The notes below the pieces were generated by a model. It did not search any database, was not told the origin of the DNA, and was given only the letters and a program-made list of their open reading frames with translations. Positions 3,468-23,275 of a stretch of 38,356 nt of DNA are shown piece by piece. The DNA is from a virus. The stretch is from positions 1 through 38,356 of the IMG/VR virus record IMGVR_UViG_3300044619_000333; one strand, written 5' to 3'. A program made the translations under genes and the position numbers. Position 1 is the stretch's first letter. Each line of letters opens with the position of its first letter.

Positions 3468-6400
3468 ATGCCAATTGATTTAGTTAAGTATGCTCAAGAT
3501 AATAACATTCTTGGCAGGACTGGTGTAGCAGCGCCCGTATCCAATGCGCAAAACGTATTGAATACGACGCTGCGTTCTGCTGAGTCTGCAGCACGCTACT
3601 CTCCCAATCGTGTTGACTTGCTTGAGTATTCTCGTGCGCTTGCTGCTGGGGAACAAAAGAAACCCAGTGGATTTGCTGGCATTGTTGGCAGCGTCCTTAA
3701 TCTTCCTGGCATCAAACAGGTGCTTGCACCTTTGCAGATTCTTGATGTTCCTCGTCGTGCAGTTATTTCTGCAGGTAAAGAACTGTGGGATGTGTTTGGC
3801 GAAGGTGATGCGTCTTGGGGTGACTTTGCCAAACAGGTCAAAGACCCCACTTTTGGTTTTGGCAGATTTGTCAACACGGGCAACAAGTGGCTTGACCGTA
3901 CTTTAGGTTTTATTGGTGACGTAGCATTTGACCCACTGACTTACGTGACGTTGGGTTCTAAGCATCTTGGTAGTTTTGGTCAACGTCTTGCAGCGAGTGG
4001 CAAGTTGCTTGACACGGGTGCTGACGCAACCCGTGCATCCAAACTTGTACGTGAGGGTTCATGGTTCCTGAGTGAAGCAGAACGTGCCAACCTTGGCGTT
4101 AGACGTGCTGGTGTTTATTTCATGGGCAAGCGTATCGCTGGCACATCAACTGCTGGTACAGCGTTGGAGCGTGCATTGACCGCTACCCGTTTGGGTATTG
4201 GTGACTCTTTTGTTGGTGAAGCATTCCGTAAAGCGTTTACTCCTTTAGAGTTCAAGGAAGCACAACTTGCGTTGAAGCGTGGTGTGATTCCAACTGAAGA
4301 GGGTGCACGTAATGCTATTCGTACTATTCTTTCTCGTGATGCTGCTGTCGCTGCACAGAACGCAGCATTGGAAGCAAACACAAGGGCTTTAGAAAAGGTT
4401 GCTGCTCAGGCTGGACGCAGTGTTGATGGTGCTTATTTAACCAGCCTTGCCGAAGACCCTGCACTGCTTGCGCAGGCAGATGCTGCTACACAGAAACTTG
4501 TTGGCGATGCCCGTGGATGGTATGACGCTTTGTATGACCAGGTTGATACTGCTACCAGAAATCTAACTGACCAACAGCAAGGCGTTGGTTACACTAAGGA
4601 TTATGTTTCTCGCATCATGACTGGTGAGGGACGTTCGTATGCATCCAAGACTGAATCTCTTGCTAACGAACTTGGTATTTCTCGTGCTGAACTAAGTAAG
4701 CCTGGTGTGTTTGAGGCACGTGTGCTTGAGCCTGGAAAGAAGTTCTTTGGTCGTGTGCTGACACAAGACGACATGAAGATTTCTCGTTTGAATGCTATTG
4801 CTAATGATGGCGGTTTTAAGGGTAAGTTCTTTGAGGATGACTATTTCAGGATTCTAGGTGGTTACGCTTCGCAACATGCTCGTGAAATGGGTCGCCTTAC
4901 ACGTTTTGATTATTTGAAAGCAAACGGTGTGTTGAAGTTTGTTGACCAAAAGGTTGGCGCAGATGCCACGTTTATAGCAGAAAAAGTTAAGGATGCTGTC
5001 AAACCCTTAAAGGATGTTAAGGACAGCATGACTGTTTTAACTAAGTTATTGAATAACCTTTCTGACGCAACGGTGCAAGGTCTTCAAGCAAGCGTGCAGC
5101 GTGCTCGCAGGGGTCTGGCGCAGGGCAATACTGAAGTGATTATCGCACGCCAGGCACAGACCGCTGCCGTGCGTGAAGTGATTGATGCTGCTGGAGCGTT
5201 GCGTAGGGCTGGCGAAAGTGTTGCAGCCATGTTTGACCCCACTGATGGTATTGACCTTGGGATTGTGGATGCGTTGACCAGGCAGATTGATGAGGCAACC
5301 GCTTCTATTCAGAAGCGTGTTGATGACTTTTTTGCTGGCAGTGCTGCATACAATGAGGCTGCTAGAGGTGTTCAATCAAACGAACAAAAGATTGCTTCAC
5401 TTAAAGGTGCGCTTGATGAAATCAATGGCGAAATGGAAGTGTTGTCAAACAACCTTTACACTTCGCTTCATATTCACGAGATTCTAAACACAAACATCAA
5501 TGCAATCATTGATGGCAAGACGTTGCCTATTTCTACGAAGTCTTTGGCTGACGAGATTGACGATGCTGGTTATTTGAAGCCAGGTCAGATTGCTGAGGCT
5601 CAAAGAAAGATTGAGCAGGCTGGCAAGGGTGGCGGTGCTGCACGTGGTCGCCCAACCAAGGCTGCAAAGACAGCCAAAGAGCAGGGCTTGAAGCGTGTTC
5701 AGACTGGCATCCAGTCTCGTGTGTCTGAGGCTGATTGGGCTAAGGGTGTTGCTGAGATTCATCCATTCCAAAAGTCCAAGGTCTATGCGATGACTGATGC
5801 TAGACGTGGAGATATTCTTTCTAGGGTTGCTGCTGGTAGTGTGACAGCAAATGACCTGAATAACGTGGCGATGAATATTATCGCACGTAATGAAGAGTTC
5901 TTGTTGCGTGCTGGTGGTACGTTGCCTGCAGAGTTGCAGAAAATACAGGATGAACTTGTTGGTCAGTTGAAGGAATTGGCTGGAGTTCGTAAAATAATTA
6001 GAACTGAAACTGCTCGTGTAATGCAAGGGTCAAGAAAGGTTCAGTCTCTTGAAGAAAAGGCTGGCACAGTTTTGCGTAGCCTTTATGACGAGCAAACAAC
6101 CTATGATGATTTGCTTAAGGCTAAAGAAAAGTTGGAAACAGAGTTGGATAATCTGCGTGCAGCAGATGATGTTGATGGCGCAACCATTCTTAGGCGTGAA
6201 AAGAAACTTGCAAAGATTGATGACGCTATTGAAAAGTCTGAAAATAAAGTTTTCTATGTTGGTCAAGGTGCCACACAGAAGGCTTATGGTGTTCGTAAGC
6301 GTCCTGGTTTTGATTATCGTGCAAAAGAAAATCTTCCTGCGGAGATTGGTACACCAAGTGACTTAGAGTTGCAGATTCAAAATCTTGGACGCACGGAACT

Positions 6401-9400
6401 TCCCGATACGGACGTGGCTGCGGTACAGCGAGGTCAGAGAAAGGCTGTAGCCCAGGCTGCTATCGCAGGTAAAGCCAATGAAGAGTTAACTCGTCGTATG
6501 GCTCGCACAATGGAGCGCTACTATGTTTCAACTGAAGTGTGGAGGCGTGCCACCGCCATTAGTGATGCTCTTGCTGAGATTGGTCTTGTTGCGGATGAGA
6601 ACATGTTGCGCAAGATTGCTCGCTCTGTTGGAAATGAGCGTAAGTCTGTTTGGTTTGATAGGGCAGACAGAGCGTTTGAGGCTGACGTACAACTAAGCAA
6701 GTTGGAATCAATGGCTGTGACTGCTGCTGAAACAAATAACTGGAAACCGCTTGGTGATGCCATTGCATTGATTTCTGCTGATAAAAAGAATTCTATTTTG
6801 GGTGAGTTGTTTGGTGATGGCGATTCTGTTTTGGGCAAAGACGCACAGTTTGTGACTGGTGCTTGGGCTGATTACCAATCAGCCAAGCGTTTCGCTGGGA
6901 CAACAAAGAAGCAAACTAAAGTTACTGAAGCATATGACATAGCGCAGGCTGGGCGTGAAATGCCAATTAATGAACTTCAGCGTGGCGCACAGGGCGCTGC
7001 GATGGAGGCACAGATTGCTGCTGAGGGTCGTTTAACCAGTTTTACTCAAGCACGTCAGGCTATGTTGGAAGCCAGCGATTCTCTTGTCAGGTGGTATCAG
7101 GAAACAGTTGGTCAACTACCTGCTGGCACTACAAAAATGTACAAGGGTCGCAGATACTTAACCGCAGATGGCGAAGAGTTGTTTGAAGATTTTATTGGTC
7201 AAAAATTCTCTGGAACATCTGAAGACGCAACACGTTTTCTTGCTGCTGCTCGCAACGTAATTGAAAACGAAAAGAAACTGACACGTCAAATGCGTTTGAT
7301 GTTTACAGGCATTGATGACCCTGACGCAAATGTGTATGCGATTCTTACGGGTGGTGCACGTGGTGACACACCTTTGGGCATGTCATTGTATTACAGACGT
7401 GAGGCTGAGCGCATACGTAAGCAACTTGAGGAATACTATCCTCTGGCTACCCAACGCAATGTGTTGCGTGGGCAGACTGGTGCGACACAAAGAAGCCTGA
7501 CTGCACGTAGGGCAGAAGAGTTGGCTAGCACAACAGGTGAGGGCATAGATGCGTTTAATACTGTGCGTGCACAGGTTCCTGCTTCCATAACAAGCCCTGA
7601 GTCTTATGCTGAGCGTGCTACAGCAGCGAGGCGTGCAGCGTTGGAACCTTATGCTGGGGGCAAGAGCACTGTTGCTTTGGACAAGGCTGTGCGTGACCGC
7701 TACGCAGTAAACCAACAGTTGGCTTCCATCAAGGGTAGTGGAGAGTACGACTTGGCGCAGGAAGCACAGAGACGTTTCAACTTCCTAAATGATATGGCTG
7801 GTCGCTCAATGGCTGGTATTGATTTTGCTGCGTTGCTAAACGACCCAGTGCTTAGCCGAACCACTTTGTCACCGCTTGAATGGGAATCATTGTTCATTGC
7901 TGACTTGTCTCCACGAGCAGTTCAGGATGCTCGTACTGTGACGTTTGAAATTCAGAATGCAATAATTGACAAGCAAACAGCCTTGGATAATTTGGTTCCA
8001 AATGGTCGTGCTGCCCAGCGTGTGCGTGGCGAGATAGATGCTTTGCAGAAAGATTTAGAACGTGCTCAACTGATTTTAGATGCGCACAGCAAACGAGTTC
8101 GTAATAGCGCAATTGACAAACTAGATGCTGTGCTTAGCCGTGCTAGGAGAACTGGTAAAGAGGAAGAGTTCTTGAGCAAGTTGCGTGCAGCAACTTCTAC
8201 AACTGAAACAAACACTTTGTCTAAGTCTCGTCGTACAGCGCTTAAGGCTGGCTGGGATGCAGCAAACGAGCGTCGTTTGTTGCAGAAGGTTGATGACCTG
8301 TCTGCGAGTGCTGGCGCAATCACAACCAGGTCCATCCAGGATGAGGTTAGGTTCCTTGAGCGTCGTTTGTATGGTGTTGGCACTGAAGGGAATCCATCTA
8401 CGTTCTCCTTGCTGTGGCGTTTGGAAGATGTAACTAAGCAAACTGGTGAAGCGTTGGCTTCTGCTCGTGCTGGTGTTGGTAATCTTGCGCAGCCAACTAC
8501 TGCGCAGTTGTCTGCTGGTACGGAACAGTTGATGAAAGATGTGTTTGGTTTGACACCTGAACAGATTGCCAGATTGACACCTGCACAGATGGAAGAGTTT
8601 GCAAGCAAGGCTTCTGCTGCGGGTCGTCGTGGTCAGCAGTCTGCTGAGATGCGTCTGGCTAACCAGAAGACCACACTATCTAGGGTTCCTGGTTGGGAAG
8701 AAGCACAAAGGCAAACAATTAAGCAGTTGGAAGAAGAAGCGTACGCTCCTGGCATGGCTGTGCCAGCGTTGCAGGCGGAGAACGCTCGCCTTGCTCGTGT
8801 CATGAAGTTGACTGAAAAGTATACAGACAACGGCGAGTTTGGTATGAGCAAGTTGACCAAGGTGTTGAATCCTAAGGGCACTCAGGCTCGCCAACGTCAA
8901 GCACTGATTAATCGTCTTGATAAGACGATTACAAGGATTGGTGATGAGGCTGACTCCAGGCTTACACAACAGCAGGCTGCTGCGAAGCGTTTTGCTGAGG
9001 CAGAGGCTGCGCTTGGTGTGGCACGCAACACTCTTGCAAGTAAGCAAGAGTTGCATGCCTTGAATGTTGCTAACTTGAACGAGCGTGTCGCTGCTGTTAG
9101 CGAAGAACTTGCCAAGATACCTAAGAAGATTACAAATCCTCGTGATGATGAAGCAATTGACGAGTTGTTGGATTTTGTTGAGCGCTCAGAACGATTCTTG
9201 AGTTTGGATGCAAACAAGAAGATTGATACGTTGTGGGCTGAGGCTGAGATTGCAAACAATGTGCTGATGCAGAACATGGACCGTGCTGCTGATGCCAAGG
9301 ACATAATTGCTGCTGCACGCAGGGGCGACATTGGTGGCAACATTCTTCCAGATATTGAAGAAGGATGGTTGCGTCTTGGTGGTTATTCACAGCAAGAACT

Positions 9401-10733
9401 TGACGCTTTGAAGAGTGCAAGAAAATCTGTTAAGGGTAAGCAAGCCAAGGCTGCATTCAAACCCGCTCCCGTGTTTGAGGCTGGGTTCCCTGGCTTGCAG
9501 ATACCCAAGGAGGTGGGCGATTGGATGACTTCGCTGACACGTGAGTTGGGCACACCTGGTAAGCAGGCAGCGTTCTTGGACTTCCTTGGTCAGTACACTA
9601 ACTTCTTTAAGGCGTATGCAACATTGTCTCCTGGTTTCCATGTGCGCAATGGTTTGTCTAACATCTTTGCTGTGTTGTCTGCTGATGCGAGTTTGGTGAA
9701 CATGCGTAAGGCTCAAAAGATTTGGTCTAAGTATGTTGCGGACCCAGAGAATTGGTTGACTGGCTTAAGCAAGGAACAGGCTGCTAAAGCCCAGAAGGCT
9801 TTGCAGGCAATGTACGCTTCGGGTGGTGGACGCATTGATGATGCTGTCACAGAGTTCATGAACCAGGGTTCTAACCGCATTTACAACAACTGGGCTACTC
9901 GCAAGTCACGCAAGGTGGGTTCCAAGATTGAATCAGCGCATCGCTTCTGGCTCGCTTATGACTCTGTTGAAAAGGGTATGGACACATCTCAGGCTTCTGC
10001 TCGTGTGCGTAGATACTTGTTTGACTATCACAACCCAAGCAGTACTGACGAGGCTATGCGTAGGATTGTTCCGTTCTGGACGTGGATGAGTCGCAACTTG
10101 CCGTTGCAGTTGGTTAACCGTTGGGCAAACCCACGAGCATACGCTGTGTACAATAGTTTTGTTCGCAACTATGGTCAGTCAACTGAGGGCATGGCTGTGC
10201 CTGGTTACTGGACTGAGCAGGGTGCGTTCCGCATTGGTGGCAACACATTCCTACAGCCTGACCTTGGTTTCAATCGTATCAATCAACAGTTGGCTGAGTT
10301 GGGTCAGCCCAACCGTTTGCTGTCGTATGTGAACCCGTTGTTGCGTGTGCCGTTGGAGTTGACTGGTAACACCAAGTTGTATAGCAACCAGCAATTTAGT
10401 GACAAGCCTGTCCCCCTTGAGGGTCCACTCAGCATTCTTGAACCTTTGTTGGCTCTTGCTGGGCAGACACAGAAAGATGCACGGGGTAATACTGTTGTGT
10501 CTGAGAAGGCGTTGTATGGTTTGATGAACGTGCTTCCACCAGTGTCTGTTGGGGAACGCTTGTTCCCATCTACTGAACAGTATGGCTCTAGGCAGGCTGC
10601 GTCTTGGTTGTCATTCTTGGGTGCCCCCATACGACAGTACAATCAGGATATTGGTGAGCGTGAGTTGTGGTCACGAAACTATGCGTTGCGTGACTTCTTG
10701 GAACAGCAAAGAAACTTGGGGAACATTCAGTAA
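3468..10733 (+). CDS. Giant virion/ejection protein, 2421 aa
   Basis: One uninterrupted frame takes about 19 percent of the window. It starts at ATG 3468, although the only upstream purine site is weak. Long Ala, Glu, Arg and Lys rich regions, for example near residues 640-940 and 1500-1900, look like extended helices or coiled coils. The last 400 residues are different. A Trp and Arg rich segment near residue 2200, with RRIVPFWTWMSRN, resembles the C-terminal region of very large phage proteins often annotated as internal virion or large polyvalent proteins. In podoviruses, proteins of this size are ejected with the DNA or act during entry. No peptidase, transglycosylase or nucleotidyltransferase motif was recognised. 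Specific domains are not assigned. Confidence 0.75.
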   Translation: MPIDLVKYAQDNNILGRTGVAAPVSNAQNVLNTTLRSAESAARYSPNRVDLLEYSRALAAGEQKKPSGFAGIVGSVLNLPGIKQVLAPLQILDVPRRAVISAGKELWDVFGEGDASWGDFAKQVKDPTFGFGRFVNTGNKWLDRTLGFIGDVAFDPLTYVTLGSKHLGSFGQRLAASGKLLDTGADATRASKLVREGSWFLSEAERANLGVRRAGVYFMGKRIAGTSTAGTALERALTATRLGIGDSFVGEAFRKAFTPLEFKEAQLALKRGVIPTEEGARNAIRTILSRDAAVAAQNAALEANTRALEKVAAQAGRSVDGAYLTSLAEDPALLAQADAATQKLVGDARGWYDALYDQVDTATRNLTDQQQGVGYTKDYVSRIMTGEGRSYASKTESLANELGISRAELSKPGVFEARVLEPGKKFFGRVLTQDDMKISRLNAIANDGGFKGKFFEDDYFRILGGYASQHAREMGRLTRFDYLKANGVLKFVDQKVGADATFIAEKVKDAVKPLKDVKDSMTVLTKLLNNLSDATVQGLQASVQRARRGLAQGNTEVIIARQAQTAAVREVIDAAGALRRAGESVAAMFDPTDGIDLGIVDALTRQIDEATASIQKRVDDFFAGSAAYNEAARGVQSNEQKIASLKGALDEINGEMEVLSNNLYTSLHIHEILNTNINAIIDGKTLPISTKSLADEIDDAGYLKPGQIAEAQRKIEQAGKGGGAARGRPTKAAKTAKEQGLKRVQTGIQSRVSEADWAKGVAEIHPFQKSKVYAMTDARRGDILSRVAAGSVTANDLNNVAMNIIARNEEFLLRAGGTLPAELQKIQDELVGQLKELAGVRKIIRTETARVMQGSRKVQSLEEKAGTVLRSLYDEQTTYDDLLKAKEKLETELDNLRAADDVDGATILRREKKLAKIDDAIEKSENKVFYVGQGATQKAYGVRKRPGFDYRAKENLPAEIGTPSDLELQIQNLGRTELPDTDVAAVQRGQRKAVAQAAIAGKANEELTRRMARTMERYYVSTEVWRRATAISDALAEIGLVADENMLRKIARSVGNERKSVWFDRADRAFEADVQLSKLESMAVTAAETNNWKPLGDAIALISADKKNSILGELFGDGDSVLGKDAQFVTGAWADYQSAKRFAGTTKKQTKVTEAYDIAQAGREMPINELQRGAQGAAMEAQIAAEGRLTSFTQARQAMLEASDSLVRWYQETVGQLPAGTTKMYKGRRYLTADGEELFEDFIGQKFSGTSEDATRFLAAARNVIENEKKLTRQMRLMFTGIDDPDANVYAILTGGARGDTPLGMSLYYRREAERIRKQLEEYYPLATQRNVLRGQTGATQRSLTARRAEELASTTGEGIDAFNTVRAQVPASITSPESYAERATAARRAALEPYAGGKSTVALDKAVRDRYAVNQQLASIKGSGEYDLAQEAQRRFNFLNDMAGRSMAGIDFAALLNDPVLSRTTLSPLEWESLFIADLSPRAVQDARTVTFEIQNAIIDKQTALDNLVPNGRAAQRVRGEIDALQKDLERAQLILDAHSKRVRNSAIDKLDAVLSRARRTGKEEEFLSKLRAATSTTETNTLSKSRRTALKAGWDAANERRLLQKVDDLSASAGAITTRSIQDEVRFLERRLYGVGTEGNPSTFSLLWRLEDVTKQTGEALASARAGVGNLAQPTTAQLSAGTEQLMKDVFGLTPEQIARLTPAQMEEFASKASAAGRRGQQSAEMRLANQKTTLSRVPGWEEAQRQTIKQLEEEAYAPGMAVPALQAENARLARVMKLTEKYTDNGEFGMSKLTKVLNPKGTQARQRQALINRLDKTITRIGDEADSRLTQQQAAAKRFAEAEAALGVARNTLASKQELHALNVANLNERVAAVSEELAKIPKKITNPRDDEAIDELLDFVERSERFLSLDANKKIDTLWAEAEIANNVLMQNMDRAADAKDIIAAARRGDIGGNILPDIEEGWLRLGGYSQQELDALKSARKSVKGKQAKAAFKPAPVFEAGFPGLQIPKEVGDWMTSLTRELGTPGKQAAFLDFLGQYTNFFKAYATLSPGFHVRNGLSNIFAVLSADASLVNMRKAQKIWSKYVADPENWLTGLSKEQAAKAQKALQAMYASGGGRIDDAVTEFMNQGSNRIYNNWATRKSRKVGSKIESAHRFWLAYDSVEKGMDTSQASARVRRYLFDYHNPSSTDEAMRRIVPFWTWMSRNLPLQLVNRWANPRAYAVYNSFVRNYGQSTEGMAVPGYWTEQGAFRIGGNTFLQPDLGFNRINQQLAELGQPNRLLSYVNPLLRVPLELTGNTKLYSNQQFSDKPVPLEGPLSILEPLLALAGQTQKDARGNTVVSEKALYGLMNVLPPVSVGERLFPSTEQYGSRQAASWLSFLGAPIRQYNQDIGERELWSRNYALRDFLEQQRNLGNIQ

Positions 10734-11329
10734 TGTGCAAAACGTATTACAAACAATTAATTGTGCCTGCGGAATTGAGGGCGTTTACGAACGGGAAGAT
10801 TCCAAGTGACCAGTTGGGTGATTTGTCGTGTGGTGGTGATGCTTGGAAGGGTGGACTGTGCGGTGGTGCGGTGTTCTCTTTTAATTTAATGTTTGACCAC
10901 GCTAAGCGTGATGGCATTGTGTTGGATGCGGTATCTGAAGGATACCGTTCATATGACCGTCAGTTGGCTTTGTTTATGGACAGGTATCAATTAAGTCCCA
11001 CTGGTCGTGTGCCTGAGATTACAAGAACATGGAATGGTGCCACCTGGTTCTTGAAGCAAGGTAAGTCGCCAAGTGCAAGCCCTGGCACATCGCCTCATGG
11101 CTGGGCGTTAGCCCAAGATTTAGACGTGCGTGACAGGCGTGTGTATGACTGGCTTGTTAAGTGGGCACCTAAGTATGGGTGGTATCTCCAGGGTCCACCT
11201 ACCTACAACGGCAAGCCAAACCCAGAGTATGAGGCTTGGCATTGGCAACTTAGTGATGCATCTAAGCCAACACGGCGTGTTCGCCGTGCATGGCGCAGGT
11301 TTGAAAAAATGTTGGAGAAGGCGAAATGA
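10733..11329 (+). CDS. Endolysin, VanY-like M15 peptidase
   Basis: This 198-residue protein carries the zinc-peptidase signature of the M15 (D-Ala-D-Ala carboxypeptidase/VanY) family. SPHGWALAQDLD gives His122 and Asp129. YEAWHWQ gives catalytic Glu167 and zinc ligand His170. YRSYDRQ at 71-77 is the usual upstream element. The enzyme cuts the peptide part of peptidoglycan, so the inferred role is release of progeny at the end of infection, although a virion-borne entry role is not excluded. There is no signal peptide, so a holin-type partner would be needed for export. The ATG overlaps the stop of the giant protein by one base. The Arg/Lys-rich tail (178-198) may bind cell wall or membrane. 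Confidence 0.88.
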   Translation: MCKTYYKQLIVPAELRAFTNGKIPSDQLGDLSCGGDAWKGGLCGGAVFSFNLMFDHAKRDGIVLDAVSEGYRSYDRQLALFMDRYQLSPTGRVPEITRTWNGATWFLKQGKSPSASPGTSPHGWALAQDLDVRDRRVYDWLVKWAPKYGWYLQGPPTYNGKPNPEYEAWHWQLSDASKPTRRVRRAWRRFEKMLEKAK

Positions 11330-11412
11330 TTTTGATTATTGGTGGAACGCTGTTTATTGTGTCAGCGTTTACATGCTTGTATCTTGCGCTGAGCGAAGAA
11401 GAAGAGTTTTAG
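11326..11412 (+). CDS. 28-aa single-span membrane peptide
   Basis: A short frame overlaps the lysin stop as ATGA at 11326, as expected for a coupled gene. It encodes MILIIGGTLFIVSAFTCLYL followed by an acidic tail. That is one hydrophobic helix of about 20 residues with a charged C-terminus. Position directly after the lysin suggests a lysis accessory such as a mini-holin or antiholin, but at this length function cannot be assigned. Its TAG shares bases with the stop of the convergent minus-strand gene (TTAG). Confidence 0.5.
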   Translation: MILIIGGTLFIVSAFTCLYLALSEEEEF

Positions 11413-12008
11413 CGTTCTTGTGTCAGCACCGCAAATGGCGGTCCTGTCATAACATCCCATTTGGAAGCAATGGTGATTGCTTTAAGCATGATGGTTCGTG
11501 CTTGTTGCAGTGAGGGACGTTGCTTTGGCATGAGCGCATCCAACGCTCCTAGAGCGTATGGTGCGCCTGTTCCTATCGCATACACACCTCTGCTGTCGCT
11601 CATCCAGCCGTAGTCTGATTCAATGCTGTAGATGGTGGCGTTGATTACTGCGATGATGTTTGATGAGTGGCTTACTGTCCCATTGTCTTTGTCTGTACCG
11701 CTATAGCCATGCGTTTCAAGGCACGCACGCAGACTTGGAATAAACTTCGCAGTAATAAAAGCATCTAACTTTCTGCCTTTCATGTTGTCCGTTGGGGTTG
11801 GTGGTGTGAATGCGTGGTGAAGGATGTTGATGGCTCGCATGTCGCCTGCTGCACCAAGAATGTATTTGCCGTTGGTTGCAACTTTGGTTGAGCCAGACCC
11901 AAGCGTGTTCGCTTGGTAAATCATGTCGTTGTCGTCAAATGAGGTGATGCGAGAGTCTGATACGACAATCGCATAGTTGTCACCTTGTAGACCCAGTATT
12001 GTTGTCAT
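11409..12008 (-). CDS. Proteasome-beta/HslV-like Ntn hydrolase
   Basis: This 199-residue protein begins MTTILGLQGD, so removal of Met would expose a Thr with the TTI start typical of proteasome-type hydrolases, and no propeptide is present. SDSR at 17-20 supplies the conserved Asp. The Lys in STKVATNGK (42) fits the catalytic Lys33 position. GAAGD at 52-56 and AIGTGAPYALGALDAL near 144-159 match the family's Gly-rich and Ser129 regions. Family members form ring-shaped proteases fed by an ATPase; no unfoldase is seen here, so it may use a host one, act alone, or have another amidase role. It is the last gene of the minus arm and its start overlaps the upstream mini-gene as ATGA. Confidence 0.82.
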   Translation of the reverse strand: MTTILGLQGDNYAIVVSDSRITSFDDNDMIYQANTLGSGSTKVATNGKYILGAAGDMRAINILHHAFTPPTPTDNMKGRKLDAFITAKFIPSLRACLETHGYSGTDKDNGTVSHSSNIIAVINATIYSIESDYGWMSDSRGVYAIGTGAPYALGALDALMPKQRPSLQQARTIMLKAITIASKWDVMTGPPFAVLTQER

Positions 12009-12094
12009 TGGGTTTTCTTACGCTTCCACTCCAGATACAGCGTGACTACCAGGTTCAACAGCCCTATTGACCAACCAATGATGTACTTAATCAT
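12005..12094 (-). CDS. 29-aa single-span membrane peptide
   Basis: This short frame starts at ATG 12094 inside the end of the upstream gene (8-base overlap) and stops at 12005, overlapping the next ATG as ATGA. It encodes a hydrophobic helix (IIGWSIGLLNLVVTLYL) with a basic tail (EWKRKKTQ), which fits one inner-membrane span with the tail in the cytoplasm. The coupling at both ends supports real translation. The role is unknown. It could be a lysis or membrane accessory, or could place the following hydrolase at the membrane. Confidence 0.5.
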   Translation of the reverse strand: MIKYIIGWSIGLLNLVVTLYLEWKRKKTQ

Positions 12095-12371
12095 CGCTAT
12101 CCATTTCGTATGGGTTGATTCCGTCCACTGCAAGAACCATCTCCAATGTTTCTACAAGTGATTCAATAATTTCAAAACAGTAAATGAGGGCATCAATGTC
12201 GCCCTCACTCACTTTGTCGTAGTTGGTACATACAGCAATTGCCTCTTCCCTGGGTAGGGTTAAGGAGATTACGTATGTTGTTGTCATGTCGCCAATCACA
12301 CGCTCCGCACGTGCATTGATGTTGCTGACTTCCTCATCAGAGAAAATGTCTTTAGCCCATTCATCACTCAT
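12087..12371 (-). CDS. Hypothetical acidic protein, 94 aa
   Basis: This is an acidic, mostly helical protein with two helical regions rich in Glu, Asp and Ile (about 10-28 and 55-82) and no Cys pairs or membrane segment. I recognise no family. The ATG at 12371 lies within the end of the upstream 53-aa gene, overlapping by 8 bases, and its own end overlaps the membrane peptide. It belongs to a string of five small coupled genes before the Ntn hydrolase. Small acidic phage proteins often bind and inhibit host proteins, but nothing here shows that. Confidence 0.6.
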   Translation of the reverse strand: MSDEWAKDIFSDEEVSNINARAERVIGDMTTTYVISLTLPREEAIAVCTNYDKVSEGDIDALIYCFEIIESLVETLEMVLAVDGINPYEMDSDD

Positions 12372-12751: not shown

Positions 12752-13579
12752 TTACTTCCTATTCCAATCTGCACTCAGTGCCAAATCAAATGTGCCATCA
12801 TTGAGCATTAATGCGACTACACAGTATCCTACAATGTCTATTACTGTGTCTACGATTGTTTCGTTAGGCACAGCGTTCTCACGATGCACCAGGTTGGCGT
12901 ATCGTTCTATTTTGTCTGACAGACGAACTATAACTCCAAGCAATCCAAAGCGGTTGATGTTGTTGTGTCCGTAGTCGTGTTGCTTAGAACAGAGCGTGTT
13001 CAACATGCAGCCCGTATCCCATGCGTCTGTAAGACGCAGGTGATTGATTGCTTGCACAGCGATGCCTGTCCAATAGTTGTGTGATGGCGGTGATTGTGCC
13101 AAGAGAACCTCTGCACCGTAGTTGCGTTGTGCTTGCAGGTCTGCGATGTTTAGTTCTTTGGGTTCGTTTGCCAAGGTTGATAGATGTGTCAGCCATTGTG
13201 ATGCTGACTCGTTCCAACTTTCTGCCACTTTAATCTTTCTCCTTATGATTGGGTTGACTGACATTATGCTTTCTAGTTTTTCAAATGCTTTGTTGCGTAG
13301 TCGCCACACATGGGTTTTGGTTATGCCCATCCGTGATGCAAGTTGTTGCAACGAGATTTGTTCTGACAGCAATGCTTCAATAATGAATCTGTCTTGTTCA
13401 TCTAGTAGTTCAATTGATTCCGCTACTGCTTCTCTCAGTGGTTGTAGTTCATAGATGGAAACCTCTGGGCTTTCACCTGGCGGTGTTTGCATCAACGCTT
13501 CCAGTTCTGTCATGGGCTTAGAGTTGTGCAGGGGCGTGAACACCCCGACCATCTCTTTGGCTATCTCACGTTTCGCCAT
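12752..13579 (-). CDS. Sigma-region-4-like HTH fused to DUF1599/Nmad1-like domain
   Basis: The protein has 275 residues from ATG 13579, with GGGAG about 9 bases upstream; an in-frame TTG at 13597 is less likely. Residues 52-105 form a sigma-70 region-4 type helix-turn-helix: LDEQDRFIIEALL, then QLASRMGITKTHVWRLRNKA. Residues 195-258 match the DUF1599 (nucleotide modification associated domain 1) pattern, with CSKQHDYGHNNINRFG, then GVIVRLSDKIERYANL and a helical IVDTVIDIVGYCV. Nmad1 domains are common in phages and proposed to act in nucleotide or base modification, without a settled reaction. The protein could regulate transcription, act on nucleotides, or link both. It overlaps the upstream nuclease-like gene by 14 bases. 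Confidence 0.72.
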   Translation of the reverse strand: MAKREIAKEMVGVFTPLHNSKPMTELEALMQTPPGESPEVSIYELQPLREAVAESIELLDEQDRFIIEALLSEQISLQQLASRMGITKTHVWRLRNKAFEKLESIMSVNPIIRRKIKVAESWNESASQWLTHLSTLANEPKELNIADLQAQRNYGAEVLLAQSPPSHNYWTGIAVQAINHLRLTDAWDTGCMLNTLCSKQHDYGHNNINRFGLLGVIVRLSDKIERYANLVHRENAVPNETIVDTVIDIVGYCVVALMLNDGTFDLALSADWNRK

Positions 13580-14030
13580 CGTACTTGACTCCCTCAACAG
13601 GGAAGTTGTCTGAGTTTAATCTGACGTACTCCTTGTTGTTGTCTGGGAAACGTGCCATCTCGCCATACGAGACGCACGCAGAGAACCAGTCGTCAATCTC
13701 TGCCAGCCACCACTTCTTACGATACGAGTCGTACACAAACAGGTGAACTTCACCAGTCATGTGCCACTTCAGTAGTGCATTGATTTTCTCAATTTTAATT
13801 TTGAGAGTTTTATCTTTGCCAATACCCATGACTTCAACAAGACCGTTGGGGGTCAGATAGTCTGGCGTGTATCGCAGCATTGGTGGCAAGTTTGCTACGT
13901 ACATGTTGGGGCGGTTCAACCCGTAGCGGTGATGGTTGGGTGTCAGTGTTTCAAACACGCCTTCAGATACGTCACCCATTTGTGAGTAGCGTACAGCGAA
14001 TGGTGCTTGGTGGAATGCTCTACCTGTCAT
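13566..14030 (-). CDS. Possible PD-(D/E)XK-type nuclease, 154 aa
   Basis: The central part reads YTPDYLTPNGLVEVMGIGKDKT, split here as PD at 56-57, Glu66 and Lys72, followed by a helix (KIKIEKINALL) and a beta strand (VHLFVYD). This order, PD then E with a nearby Lys and a following helix, fits small PD-(D/E)XK endonucleases that recognise or resolve DNA. The usual E-X-K spacing is not exact (Met at +2), so the assignment is tentative. The start ATG overlaps the RusA stop as ATGA and has a GAGGAAG site. Two resolvase-like genes side by side could mean distinct roles in recombination and packaging of branched DNA. Confidence 0.5.
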   Translation of the reverse strand: MTGRAFHQAPFAVRYSQMGDVSEGVFETLTPNHHRYGLNRPNMYVANLPPMLRYTPDYLTPNGLVEVMGIGKDKTLKIKIEKINALLKWHMTGEVHLFVYDSYRKKWWLAEIDDWFSACVSYGEMARFPDNNKEYVRLNSDNFPVEGVKYDGET

Positions 14031-20486: not shown

Positions 20487-21359
20487 TCACCTCCAATCAT
20501 TTGTTTTGCTGTCGTAGTAAAGGTCAAGCAGTCTGTCGTCTGCGCTGTTGCTGTACCAAGAGTCAGAGCATGTGCAATGCTCGTCAAACTCTTCGCACAC
20601 TAAACAAACATCACAGTCAGGGCATGCTGTCTCACCTTTGCTTTCATCTACTTTCCATTGCACATCGCACAGTGGGCAAGTAGCAACCCAGATGTTGTCG
20701 TCCCACTCATCGTATAAGTCACGACTGTTGTGTGAGCGAATAGATGGTGACGATTCCCACGACCACGAATAGTTAGTCGTTGGCTTATATGTGTACGTCC
20801 TAGGCTTGTAGGAATCGTTAGACCACCACACACCACCACTATCCCAGTGACCCATTTGCTCGTTAGCAATGTAGAACGATTGCTTAGCACGAGGGTCATT
20901 AGTGAGAATGACCAACTTGGATGCACCAATTTGTTTCTCAACAAACTGAAACGCCTCAGGGTCATCAAGCACACCAGCACCACCAAGTTTAGGCAGAACA
21001 ACTTCTGCATAGAACCTAGTGTCACTACGCTTGTCACCTTTGGGTTGCTCAATAGGAATGATGCCGTTGTGACCTAACACAGTGCGGTCATCGTGACCTA
21101 CATAGAACGGGTGGCAGTTCTTCTTATTGACTGTGCCGTGCGTAGCCCAACGAAGATGAAACATTGACTCACCAGGAGTCAGTTCCAACTGTTGATGATA
21201 CGCAGTGACAACCTTGTCAAAGTTCATACCACGACCACGAACGATGCGGTCACCAATGTTGATAGCCCAACCGAAACCGTCAGGGTTTGCGATTGATGCA
21301 GTCTCTAGAGAATCCAGAGACGGGGTTGCGCCCTTGTGGGCGAATACTAATAGACACAT
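20487..21359 (-). CDS. Class II glutamine amidotransferase with C-terminal zinc ribbons
   Basis: The 290-residue protein begins MCLLVFAHKG, giving the N-terminal Cys nucleophile of Ntn-type class II glutamine amidotransferases. HLRWATHG at 68-75 is the conserved Arg-x-x-Thr/His site and GHNGII at 96-101 the Asn-Gly oxyanion element, as in YafJ-like enzymes. These domains release ammonia from glutamine. Residues 228-264 contain CPLC, CPDC and a further four Cys, likely two zinc sites not found in simple YafJ proteins. The role is probably supplying ammonia to, or deamidating products of, the amidoligase next door. The leader has dyad copy 1, CAA repeats and AAAGGAG before ATG 21359. Confidence 0.85.
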   Translation of the reverse strand: MCLLVFAHKGATPSLDSLETASIANPDGFGWAINIGDRIVRGRGMNFDKVVTAYHQQLELTPGESMFHLRWATHGTVNKKNCHPFYVGHDDRTVLGHNGIIPIEQPKGDKRSDTRFYAEVVLPKLGGAGVLDDPEAFQFVEKQIGASKLVILTNDPRAKQSFYIANEQMGHWDSGGVWWSNDSYKPRTYTYKPTTNYSWSWESSPSIRSHNSRDLYDEWDDNIWVATCPLCDVQWKVDESKGETACPDCDVCLVCEEFDEHCTCSDSWYSNSADDRLLDLYYDSKTNDWR

Positions 21360-21390: not shown

Positions 21391-21410
21391 ATTGTAAATG
21401 TAATTACAAT
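21391..21410 (-). promoter_or_regulatory. Dyad element, copy 1
   Basis: ATTGTAATTACATTTACAAT read on the minus strand. The arms ATTGTAA/TTACAAT are perfect inverted repeats around a six-base centre. It is flanked by G and C that extend the dyad to eight pairs. It overlaps the stop codon of the amidoligase and lies 31 bases before the amidotransferase start. One of five copies. Confidence 0.8.
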
Positions 21411-23275
21411 CAGACTTCAGTGATGACACGAGTGACACGGCGGTCAATGCGGTCAGCGCACTGCGAGTATTGGGGCTTGTCGTTCAGCCATTCACGGAAC
21501 TGAGCGAACTCAAACTTGCCATCGTAATGGTCACGGCATGAGAGAACACGAGTCCACTCTGCGAGAGCATCAGCAAGTTCAAGATACGCTGTCACAGTTT
21601 CTGGAACCATTGAGGAACGGAAGATGCGCAATTCAATCGTGTGCTCGTTCTGAACATTCACAGCGACATAACGCTCAGGATTGCTTTCACCTTTGGCACG
21701 GTCAATGAACTGCATACGCTCGTACTCTGCATAGTCTGCCCAACGCTTAGAGCGACGACCAGAGAACTTGACGAGTTCATCTTGGAACTTGTACACAGCG
21801 AGAATGAATCGTGCGGTGTGCGCACGATTGGTGAAACCACTGCGTGACAAGTGAATGTGAATACCGCATTTCAGTTTGTCATCACTATCTTTCGCATCCC
21901 AAGCAATGAAACCATTGCGCTTGCACTCTGCAAGCCAGTCCCAGAACTTGTTGAAATTGCGATGAGACTCAAGCGTCATGGGTTGTGACACATACTCAAA
22001 GCCTTGATAGCCGATAGAGCCATCTTCTTTGAGAATTGCATACTCGTTCTCAATGCTGTCGTAGAACGAATCAACCATCTCATCACGATTACGAGTCTCA
22101 TTAAGCATCTCGTGCTCAAGACCTAGATACATGACACCTGGCTTTGCACGATGAATGTGAGTGCCGTTGTCGTGGAAACGCAAACCACACAAGTCGTCAA
22201 ACTTGGTGGTGTACGACATGATGCCACGACCATTGCAACGCTGGCAATCTTCCTCGTCACCTTCAATGGTTCTATCTTGCGACTCGCAATAGTGATAGCG
22301 AGGTGCACAGTACTCGTGATAACTGTTGTAGCCACGGCGTGGAGTGTAAATCTCAACAACATCATCATGGTCACGCATTATCTCATCACACTCTTGACAT
22401 ACGCTGTAGTTGCTCGCACAACCATCGCAAATCTGCTCACCACTAGGTGTGTGGTCACTGAGGTCGTAGGTGCTGTAACACTCTTCACACTCTTCACACA
22501 TGAACCAATAGTTTTCCGAATACCAACTACCGTTAATATCCATCCATCCATCATCTAGTAACTCGTCACGAGTTCCTCTAGCAGTGATGTTGCAGTTGCG
22601 TGTGCACTCAACATCAAGTATTTCTTCTTCTTCGTTTGACATTTCTGTCTCCTGTTCTGTTGTTGTTGTTGTTTCAATGCCCCACACGGGGCAGAGATTT
22701 TGTATCTGCTGGCTAATGCTTGAAATGGTGTTTGCCATTCCTGCATGAACAATCATCAGATGATTATCATCGCCAATCGTACCACCACGAGCAGTTTCTA
22801 AATGCCTAGAAACATGAACGGGTATTGCCATCTCTGCAGTATCAAAGCGCCACCATGAAACACGAGTGCGGTCTTGCCACAATTTCTCAAGTTTCACAAT
22901 TTGACCACCTGGCAAAAAGTATTCAGCACTGGTGTTGTTGGGTAGTGAAAGTATGCCATACGATGCATCAGACCAATCACCAACAACTAGACCGCCGTGC
23001 GAATAAGGATTGCGCACGAACTGTTCAAAAGTTGATTGTGCAATTCGTTCTTCGTAACAAACGAATAGATACGCACGACCAAAAGAGTTTGTGATGATGT
23101 TGCTACCACCATTCACACTGGAACTCATTGAGAACCAGATTGTGTAAATGTTTCTTGTATTCGCACAATGCACAACAACCGATGATGTGGGCATTGTTGA
23201 TGGTGAGGAAATGTATCGCACGGCACCTTTTGTCGCACGCACAAGCCCATACCAATTTAATGTTGGGAATAACAT
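21410..23275 (-). CDS. Amidoligase (GS-fold COOH-NH2 ligase) with Cys-rich central region
   Basis: The gene encodes 621 residues. The C-terminal third has all marks of the Amidoligase_2 family, a glutamine-synthetase-fold ligase. GLEHE at 385-389, EDGSI at 417-421 with GFEYVS, CGIHIHLS at 470-477, and NVQNEHTIELRIFR at 540-553 are the metal and ATP-binding motifs. Residues 224-347 hold about thirteen Cys in C-x2-C pairs (zinc sites). Residues 1-205 are a separate unknown domain. The family joins an amino group to a carboxylate, making amides or peptide conjugates, often beside a class II amidotransferase as here. An internal start with its own leader at 22642 may produce a 410-residue form. 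Dyad copy 2 precedes the main start. Confidence 0.85.
   Translation of the reverse strand: MLFPTLNWYGLVRATKGAVRYISSPSTMPTSSVVVHCANTRNIYTIWFSMSSSVNGGSNIITNSFGRAYLFVCYEERIAQSTFEQFVRNPYSHGGLVVGDWSDASYGILSLPNNTSAEYFLPGGQIVKLEKLWQDRTRVSWWRFDTAEMAIPVHVSRHLETARGGTIGDDNHLMIVHAGMANTISSISQQIQNLCPVWGIETTTTTEQETEMSNEEEEILDVECTRNCNITARGTRDELLDDGWMDINGSWYSENYWFMCEECEECYSTYDLSDHTPSGEQICDGCASNYSVCQECDEIMRDHDDVVEIYTPRRGYNSYHEYCAPRYHYCESQDRTIEGDEEDCQRCNGRGIMSYTTKFDDLCGLRFHDNGTHIHRAKPGVMYLGLEHEMLNETRNRDEMVDSFYDSIENEYAILKEDGSIGYQGFEYVSQPMTLESHRNFNKFWDWLAECKRNGFIAWDAKDSDDKLKCGIHIHLSRSGFTNRAHTARFILAVYKFQDELVKFSGRRSKRWADYAEYERMQFIDRAKGESNPERYVAVNVQNEHTIELRIFRSSMVPETVTAYLELADALAEWTRVLSCRDHYDGKFEFAQFREWLNDKPQYSQCADRIDRRVTRVITEV
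22642..22692 (-). promoter_or_regulatory. Internal leader and ribosome-binding site inside the amidoligase gene
   Basis: On the minus strand a GCCCC-GTGT-GGGGC hairpin (22679-22692) is followed by five CAA repeats, then AGGAGAC and ATG 22642, in frame (Met212). The CAA run, GAACAGGAGAC and spacing closely match the leader of the amidotransferase gene (CAACAACAACAA, AAAGGAGAC). A second start at Met212 would give the Cys-rich plus ligase part alone. This could instead be a fossil of a gene fusion. Confidence 0.6.

Follow-up and report, generated by a model that had tools for sequence, protein, structure and literature searches.

The window (the whole stretch of DNA analysed here, 38,356 bases) is a virus record that encodes functions for packaging, replication and lysis as well as portal, scaffold and capsid proteins, the usual set of head genes. 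At the end of the early block, which runs on the minus strand, lies a gene for a proteasome-like peptidase; across 79 bases it converges with the VanY-type endolysin gene of the late block on the plus strand. The features on which the following discussion draws are:

10733-11329, plus strand: endolysin-like D-Ala-D-Ala carboxypeptidase of VanY type, the gene with which the convergent late block ends and one flank of the variable site
11330-11408, no strand: 79-base junction between the converging ends of the peptidase and endolysin genes, folding better than shuffled sequences (z -2.9)
11409-12008, minus strand: proteasome-like (group I, BPH/HslV-like) N-terminal-threonine peptidase of 199 aa, assigned from Pfam, PHROG, predicted fold and conserved residues
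12003-12008, minus strand: codons 1 and 2 of the peptidase gene (ATG-ACA), with Met1 directly before Thr2, from start-codon inspection
12087-12371, minus strand: small early gene, the last shared early-block gene in sister phages and the other flank of the variable site
20487-21359, minus strand: class II glutamine amidotransferase (GATase_4)
21410-23275, minus strand: amidoligase-domain protein with several Cys pairs (Amidoligase_2)

The peptidase reading frame of 199 codons lies on the minus strand, while the plus-strand frame at 11409-12008 is closed by many stops; a preliminary description of this DNA had given no strand. The motifs which that description had listed are all present in the translation and in the order claimed, namely MTT (residues 1-3), SDSR (17-20), STK (40-42), GAAGD (52-56) and AIGTGAPYALGAL (144-156). 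Given that an in-frame stop lies four codons upstream and that the ATG before Thr2 is the only possible start, with no alternative start codon in between, the peptidase has no propeptide, as had also been proposed. The GC content of the gene (48.7%, and 49.5% at third positions) is similar to that of the remaining phage sequence. The term small lytic phage, used earlier for this record, is in keeping with its size and gene content, and no integrase or repressor appeared among the scanned window proteins, a subset of the open reading frames of a record that is perhaps incomplete. No WhiB gene was seen in the window.

Family assignment and predicted fold

The peptidase matches the Proteasome family of Pfam (PF00227) with E=1.2e-8 and 35.3 bits against a gathering score of 22.4, which places it in the family, and PHROG 1040 ("peptidase HslV family") over its full length with E=2e-20. 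Judged by these sequence matches, and by the viral relatives and dN/dS values given below, the reading frame is a real gene, far above chance. The curated models of particular members are a different matter. The peptidase scores 28.4 bits against 137 required by the NCBI HslV model NF003964, 25.3 against 157.75 for TIGR03692 and 27.1, far under the cut-off of 224, for the curated archaeal beta-subunit model, so that membership of HslV itself is not borne out. Among solved structures the best sequence match is BPH (2.1e-6). Designed alpha-Rep proteins that also appeared as sequence relatives in the PDB were dismissed as chance repeats, with no stretch passing by itself.

An AlphaFold2 model, built on an alignment of 26 related sequences, has a pLDDT of 92.9 and a pTM of 0.88 and contains the core strands and helices H1 to H4, with H1 predicted at residues 57-66, H2 at 78-99, a loop at 100-116 and strand S7 at 117-122. 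Foldseek searches of the PDB with this model returned BPH and HslV as top matches. In a second look with VIA-align, the best 1000 PDB chains listed all had Z of at least 8, and these structure-library listings consisted of proteasome-family chains. The predicted model superposes on BPH, HslV and proteasome beta with Z of 18-20 over 163-176 residues, BPH being the best among the matches listed (Z 20.0, rmsd 2.4 A over 174 residues). The structure prediction and fold search suggested in the preliminary description therefore return the proteasome-beta/HslV/BPH fold that it had expected; its designation of the protein as a proteasome-beta/HslV-like hydrolase stands as far as the fold is concerned, with the correction that among solved structures BPH and not HslV (Z 18.4) is nearest. 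Among viral structural models, the best matches were to other phage proteins, and the first of these bears the name HslV.

In most BPH, HslV and proteasome beta chains, the catalytic Thr at residue 1 aligns with residue 2 of the model. Thr2, Lys42 and Gly55 are invariant in the 26 aligned sequences, Asp18 and Asp185 are each kept in 25 of them, and positions 147 and 188 hold Thr or Ser throughout (26/26 each; Thr147 and Thr188 in the window), so the catalytic residues named in the preliminary description belong to a full and conserved set. We take Thr2, Lys42, Gly55, Asp18, Asp185 and positions 147 and 188 to be the equivalents of the proteasome residues Thr1, Lys33, Gly47, Asp17, Asp166, Ser129 and Ser169. 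Conservation in the alignment thus points to an N-terminal Thr nucleophile together with the equivalents of Asp17, Lys33 and Gly47. The clustering of Thr2, Asp18 and Lys42 in one active site, on which the earlier proposal had been staked, is indicated indirectly, by the global superposition of the model and by conservation. For BPH, equivalents of several of these positions have been given (PMC5777263).

A prediction as an active N-terminal-threonine peptidase, functional once the host has removed the initiator Met, is well supported. Between pairs of close relatives dN/dS is 0.02-0.10, as expected of a gene kept for its protein product. BPH, which likewise has no propeptide, is freed of its initiator Met and reacts with epoxomicin through Thr1, but it was inert on standard peptides and on casein (PMC5777263). 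By this analogy, complete catalytic residues alone are no proof of peptidase activity, and it could be speculated that the protein keeps the fold and the nucleophile while working as a specific protein ligase or transpeptidase, similar to connectase, or as a small-molecule amidase. The proteasome-like family does include a ligase, connectase (PMC8665760), the inertness of BPH would fit, and the invariant AGDMRAINIL segment of the family is longer than catalytic residues alone explain. However, connectase has no H1-H2 and carries a two-helix insertion between S3 and S4, whereas the peptidase has both helices and no helical insertion there, and we regard this reading as improbable.

A largely phage-borne branch

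A scan of IMG/VR recovered 56 viral loci with relatives of the peptidase at 38-59% identity, all of which begin with Met/Val-Thr-Thr from an ATG or GTG start codon. Among 84,980 cellular species, each represented by one genome, a search for the family signature found only one contig, which belongs to a gammaproteobacterial MAG; being a pattern search, it passes over cellular relatives that do not carry the signature. The AGDMRAINIL helix H1 is invariant in the branch made up of these 56 viral loci and the one cellular contig, and as far as such sequence searches reach, the branch is nearly phage-only. Weaker matches occur in named phages of Actinomycetia, Microbacterium, Arthrobacter, Gordonia, Vibrio, Xanthomonas and others, some of them annotated as "protease" or "HslV", and homologs also lie on plasmids of rhizobia, Paraburkholderia and Streptomyces. 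Arthrobacter phage Hum25 and Microbacterium phage LeeroyJenkins, both culturable, are examples of phages with a related "protease" gene. In a maximum-likelihood tree, the branch of the window (94% support) is separate from that of the plasmid homologs (99%), in which TSSFRMGQLL-like segments replace AGDMRAINIL; the deep nodes of this tree are unresolved. Three of these other-branch proteasome-like homologs (L181, L182 and L183) are found on large rhizobial and Paraburkholderia plasmids, one of them between nifQ and nifS-linked genes and the others near transposase and recombinase genes.

WhiB genes are typical of actinobacteria and their phages, and they are present in 20 of 36 carrier records. 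By this marker, many of the carriers are actinophages. A metallophosphoesterase gene directly upstream of the peptidase gene was seen at 19 loci (within L001-L010 and L012-L031) in two types of neighbourhood that differ in their downstream genes, WhiB in one and portal/capsid genes in the other, and the two genes may travel together. In a viral contig of 268 kb (G006, IMGVR_UViG_3300042868_009074) the peptidase gene occurs twice, in differing copies (L007 and L022), and two PAN-like ATPases are encoded as well; the contig may have arisen when two phages were assembled into one.

Accessory cargo at a variable site

Sister phages of the window were collected by their related terminases, which are mostly 66-78% identical. 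The peptidase gene is absent from all 23 other tested records with such a terminase, some of which are fragments, and in nine that span the early/late junction the flanking genes are recognisable and the site is either empty or filled by other reading frames. Given these nine sisters, the peptidase gene is accessory cargo at a variable site and lies outside the phage core. Other occupants of the site include a 126-aa reading frame, a reading frame of 100-102 aa and a gene that starts like a DNA cytosine methyltransferase. The convergent junction as a place of variable cargo can be seen in the sister records L161, L163, L166 and L168, for example.

Elsewhere in the window, a plus-strand gene (3468-10733) encodes a protein of 2421 aa with no PHROG match, of which most sisters conserve mainly the two ends; it is possibly an ejected internal protein. 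The minus-strand gene at 12752-13597 fuses a sigma-70 region-4-like helix-turn-helix to a DUF1599 nucleotide-modification-associated domain, and its counterpart in some sister contigs matches the helix-turn-helix part only.

The distribution among sisters bears directly on two possible functions. A protease of capsid or virion maturation could be considered, as in another group of carriers (L018-L020 and L031) the peptidase gene immediately precedes the genes for portal, scaffold-like and capsid proteins. In the window, however, it ends the early block on the strand opposite to the head genes, and sisters with capsid proteins 78-89% identical to that of the window do without it; in nine of these sisters the record covers the site. 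Capsid maturation can therefore proceed without the peptidase, and the prohead protease role, which we judge extremely improbable, was rejected on its absence from phages with closely similar head proteins.

The second possibility is that the peptidase, the amidoligase and the class II glutamine amidotransferase make up a system that tags proteins and degrades them, a phage analogue of Pup and the proteasome. The three genes share one early block, and the tagging pair is recognisable by Pfam, with Amidoligase_2 scoring 29.3 bits and GATase_4 reaching its cut-off. Yet eight sister records that have no peptidase carry the two genes next to each other, while the more distant MW202803 has no pair; Pfam finds the amidoligase in 8 of 23 sister records, and of 49 records with the peptidase, the window alone gives a match to Amidoligase_2. 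Neither a Pup-like gene nor an unfoldase was seen. This scheme is very improbable, and a link of the pair to the peptidase was rejected on the distribution of the genes. The amidotransferase/amidoligase pair, common to many sisters, looks like a core early function of the lineage. Amidoligases are annotated in other phages too.

Proposed function and comparison with known systems

Given that HslV and the 20S proteasome work with an ATPase, the peptidase ring might pair with an AAA+ unfoldase of host or phage origin, for instance ARC/Mpa, HslU or ClpX, to which it would dock in order to degrade host proteins at the expense of ATP. Some carriers are suggestive in this respect: PF00004 is above its cut-off in 28 of 36 carrier records, one phage clade has a PAN/CDC48-like ATPase of 533-540 aa about 9-14 kb from the peptidase gene, and five carrier records have a ClpA/B-D2-like ATPase. 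Against this, neither PF07724 nor PF00004 has a match in the window, in agreement with the earlier statement that the phage encodes no unfoldase, which leaves a host HslU as a candidate partner. Of 17 searched records with the PAN-like ATPase, 10 have no peptidase gene, several of these being 77-194 kb long, and the peptidase also occurs without the ATPase. Furthermore, position 44 is never basic in the family alignment; by count from the catalytic Lys, it would be the equivalent of HslV Arg35, which has a docking role. Fuchs et al. likewise reported no co-occurring AAA+ protein (PMC8665760). A partner encoded by the phage was rejected, as the AAA+ genes of relatives are not consistently coupled to the peptidase, and ATP-driven degradation through any AAA+ partner appears unlikely on the whole. 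The PAN/CDC48-like proteins of the large phages have an N-terminal half of an unrecognised kind; records with AAA+ genes of this type or of the ClpA/B-D2-like type are G018, G025, G004, G006, G010, G013, G014, G024 and G026.

We consider it probable that the protein is a peptidase of the BPH/HslV group that is activated by Met removal, forms a ring, works without an unfoldase and is carried as accessory cargo for host takeover. Host methionine aminopeptidase would take off Met1 and expose Thr2 as the nucleophile, to be activated by Lys42 and Asp18, while Gly55 would form the oxyanion hole. The most likely assembly, to judge from BPH and HslV, would be a homo-oligomeric, closed double ring with the active sites hidden inside, and such a ring may act without a dedicated unfoldase on proteins that are unfolded or specifically recognised. 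Other aquatic phages, several of them actinophages, are the probable source of the gene. Its accessory distribution and its position in the early block suggest a role in host takeover or counter-defence, for example the removal of a host or defence protein, rather than in virion building. PADLOC returned no match to defence genes, and nothing in the neighbourhood of the peptidase gene names a target. A broader reading, which we offer tentatively as a possibility of lower probability, is that of a phage-exclusive, unnamed subfamily of proteasome homologs, marked by AGDMRAINIL in H1 and moving as cargo among freshwater phages, many of them actinobacterial, in which an ATP-independent compartmentalised peptidase would be directed against a host or defence protein.

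To our knowledge, phage proteasome homologs have no known function. The new detail here is that the gene is accessory and dispensable in a 38-kb phage with otherwise similar sisters that do not carry it. To have almost the same phage backbone in versions that carry or lack a single gene amounts to a natural experiment that makes function testable, and the sister distribution dissociates the peptidase from capsid maturation as well as from the amidoligase pair. Should the takeover role prove true, this would be a virus that uses a minimal compartmental protease against its host.

Phage-borne proteasome homologs (PPH, AAH and CPH) were described by Fuchs, Alva and Lupas in 2021, who called PPH the first true viral member; in their survey the gene context was uninformative, and AAH was not reported from any actinophage (PMC8665760). 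PPH and AAH are, like the peptidase, phage-borne group I homologs without a known partner. PPH, however, has about 140 residues and no H2 (PMC8665760), whereas the peptidase has 199 residues and its H2 and is therefore not a PPH. Judged by host distribution, AAH may correspond to the rhizobial and Streptomyces homologs of the separate branch with TSSFRMGQLL-like segments. With HslV the peptidase shares the fold and a nucleophile Thr directly after the start residue, but it falls under the equivalog cut-offs, has no HslU in the window and has a longer H2-S7 loop. BPH (PDB 5OVS/5OVT) resembles it in the missing propeptide, the long H2-S7 loop (residues 100-116 of the peptidase) and the lack of a known partner unfoldase, although identity is about 21% and BPH is cellular whereas the branch of the window is phage-borne. 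The H2-S7 (pore) loop is highly acidic in BPH and nearly neutral in the peptidase (two acidic residues and one basic; 2-5 and 0-2, respectively, in relatives).

The closest named phage protein is the "ATP-dependent protease subunit HslV" of the Actinomycetia phage DSL-LC01 (WJZ48484), 43.8% identical over 99% of the length. It shares the AGD.RAINIL signature and comes from lake water, but it belongs to a 129-kb phage, its gene adjoins a WhiB gene and the protein has a basic C-terminal tail. PHROG 1040 gathers genes annotated as "protease" in phages of Microbacterium, Arthrobacter and Gordonia together with the rhizobial and Streptomyces plasmid homologs; it is a broad family, within which the AGDMRAINIL helix sets the branch of the window apart. 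The peptidase is of a kind already known from phages, and its branch is partly described, in the 2021 catalogue (PMC8665760) and in the PHROGs family.
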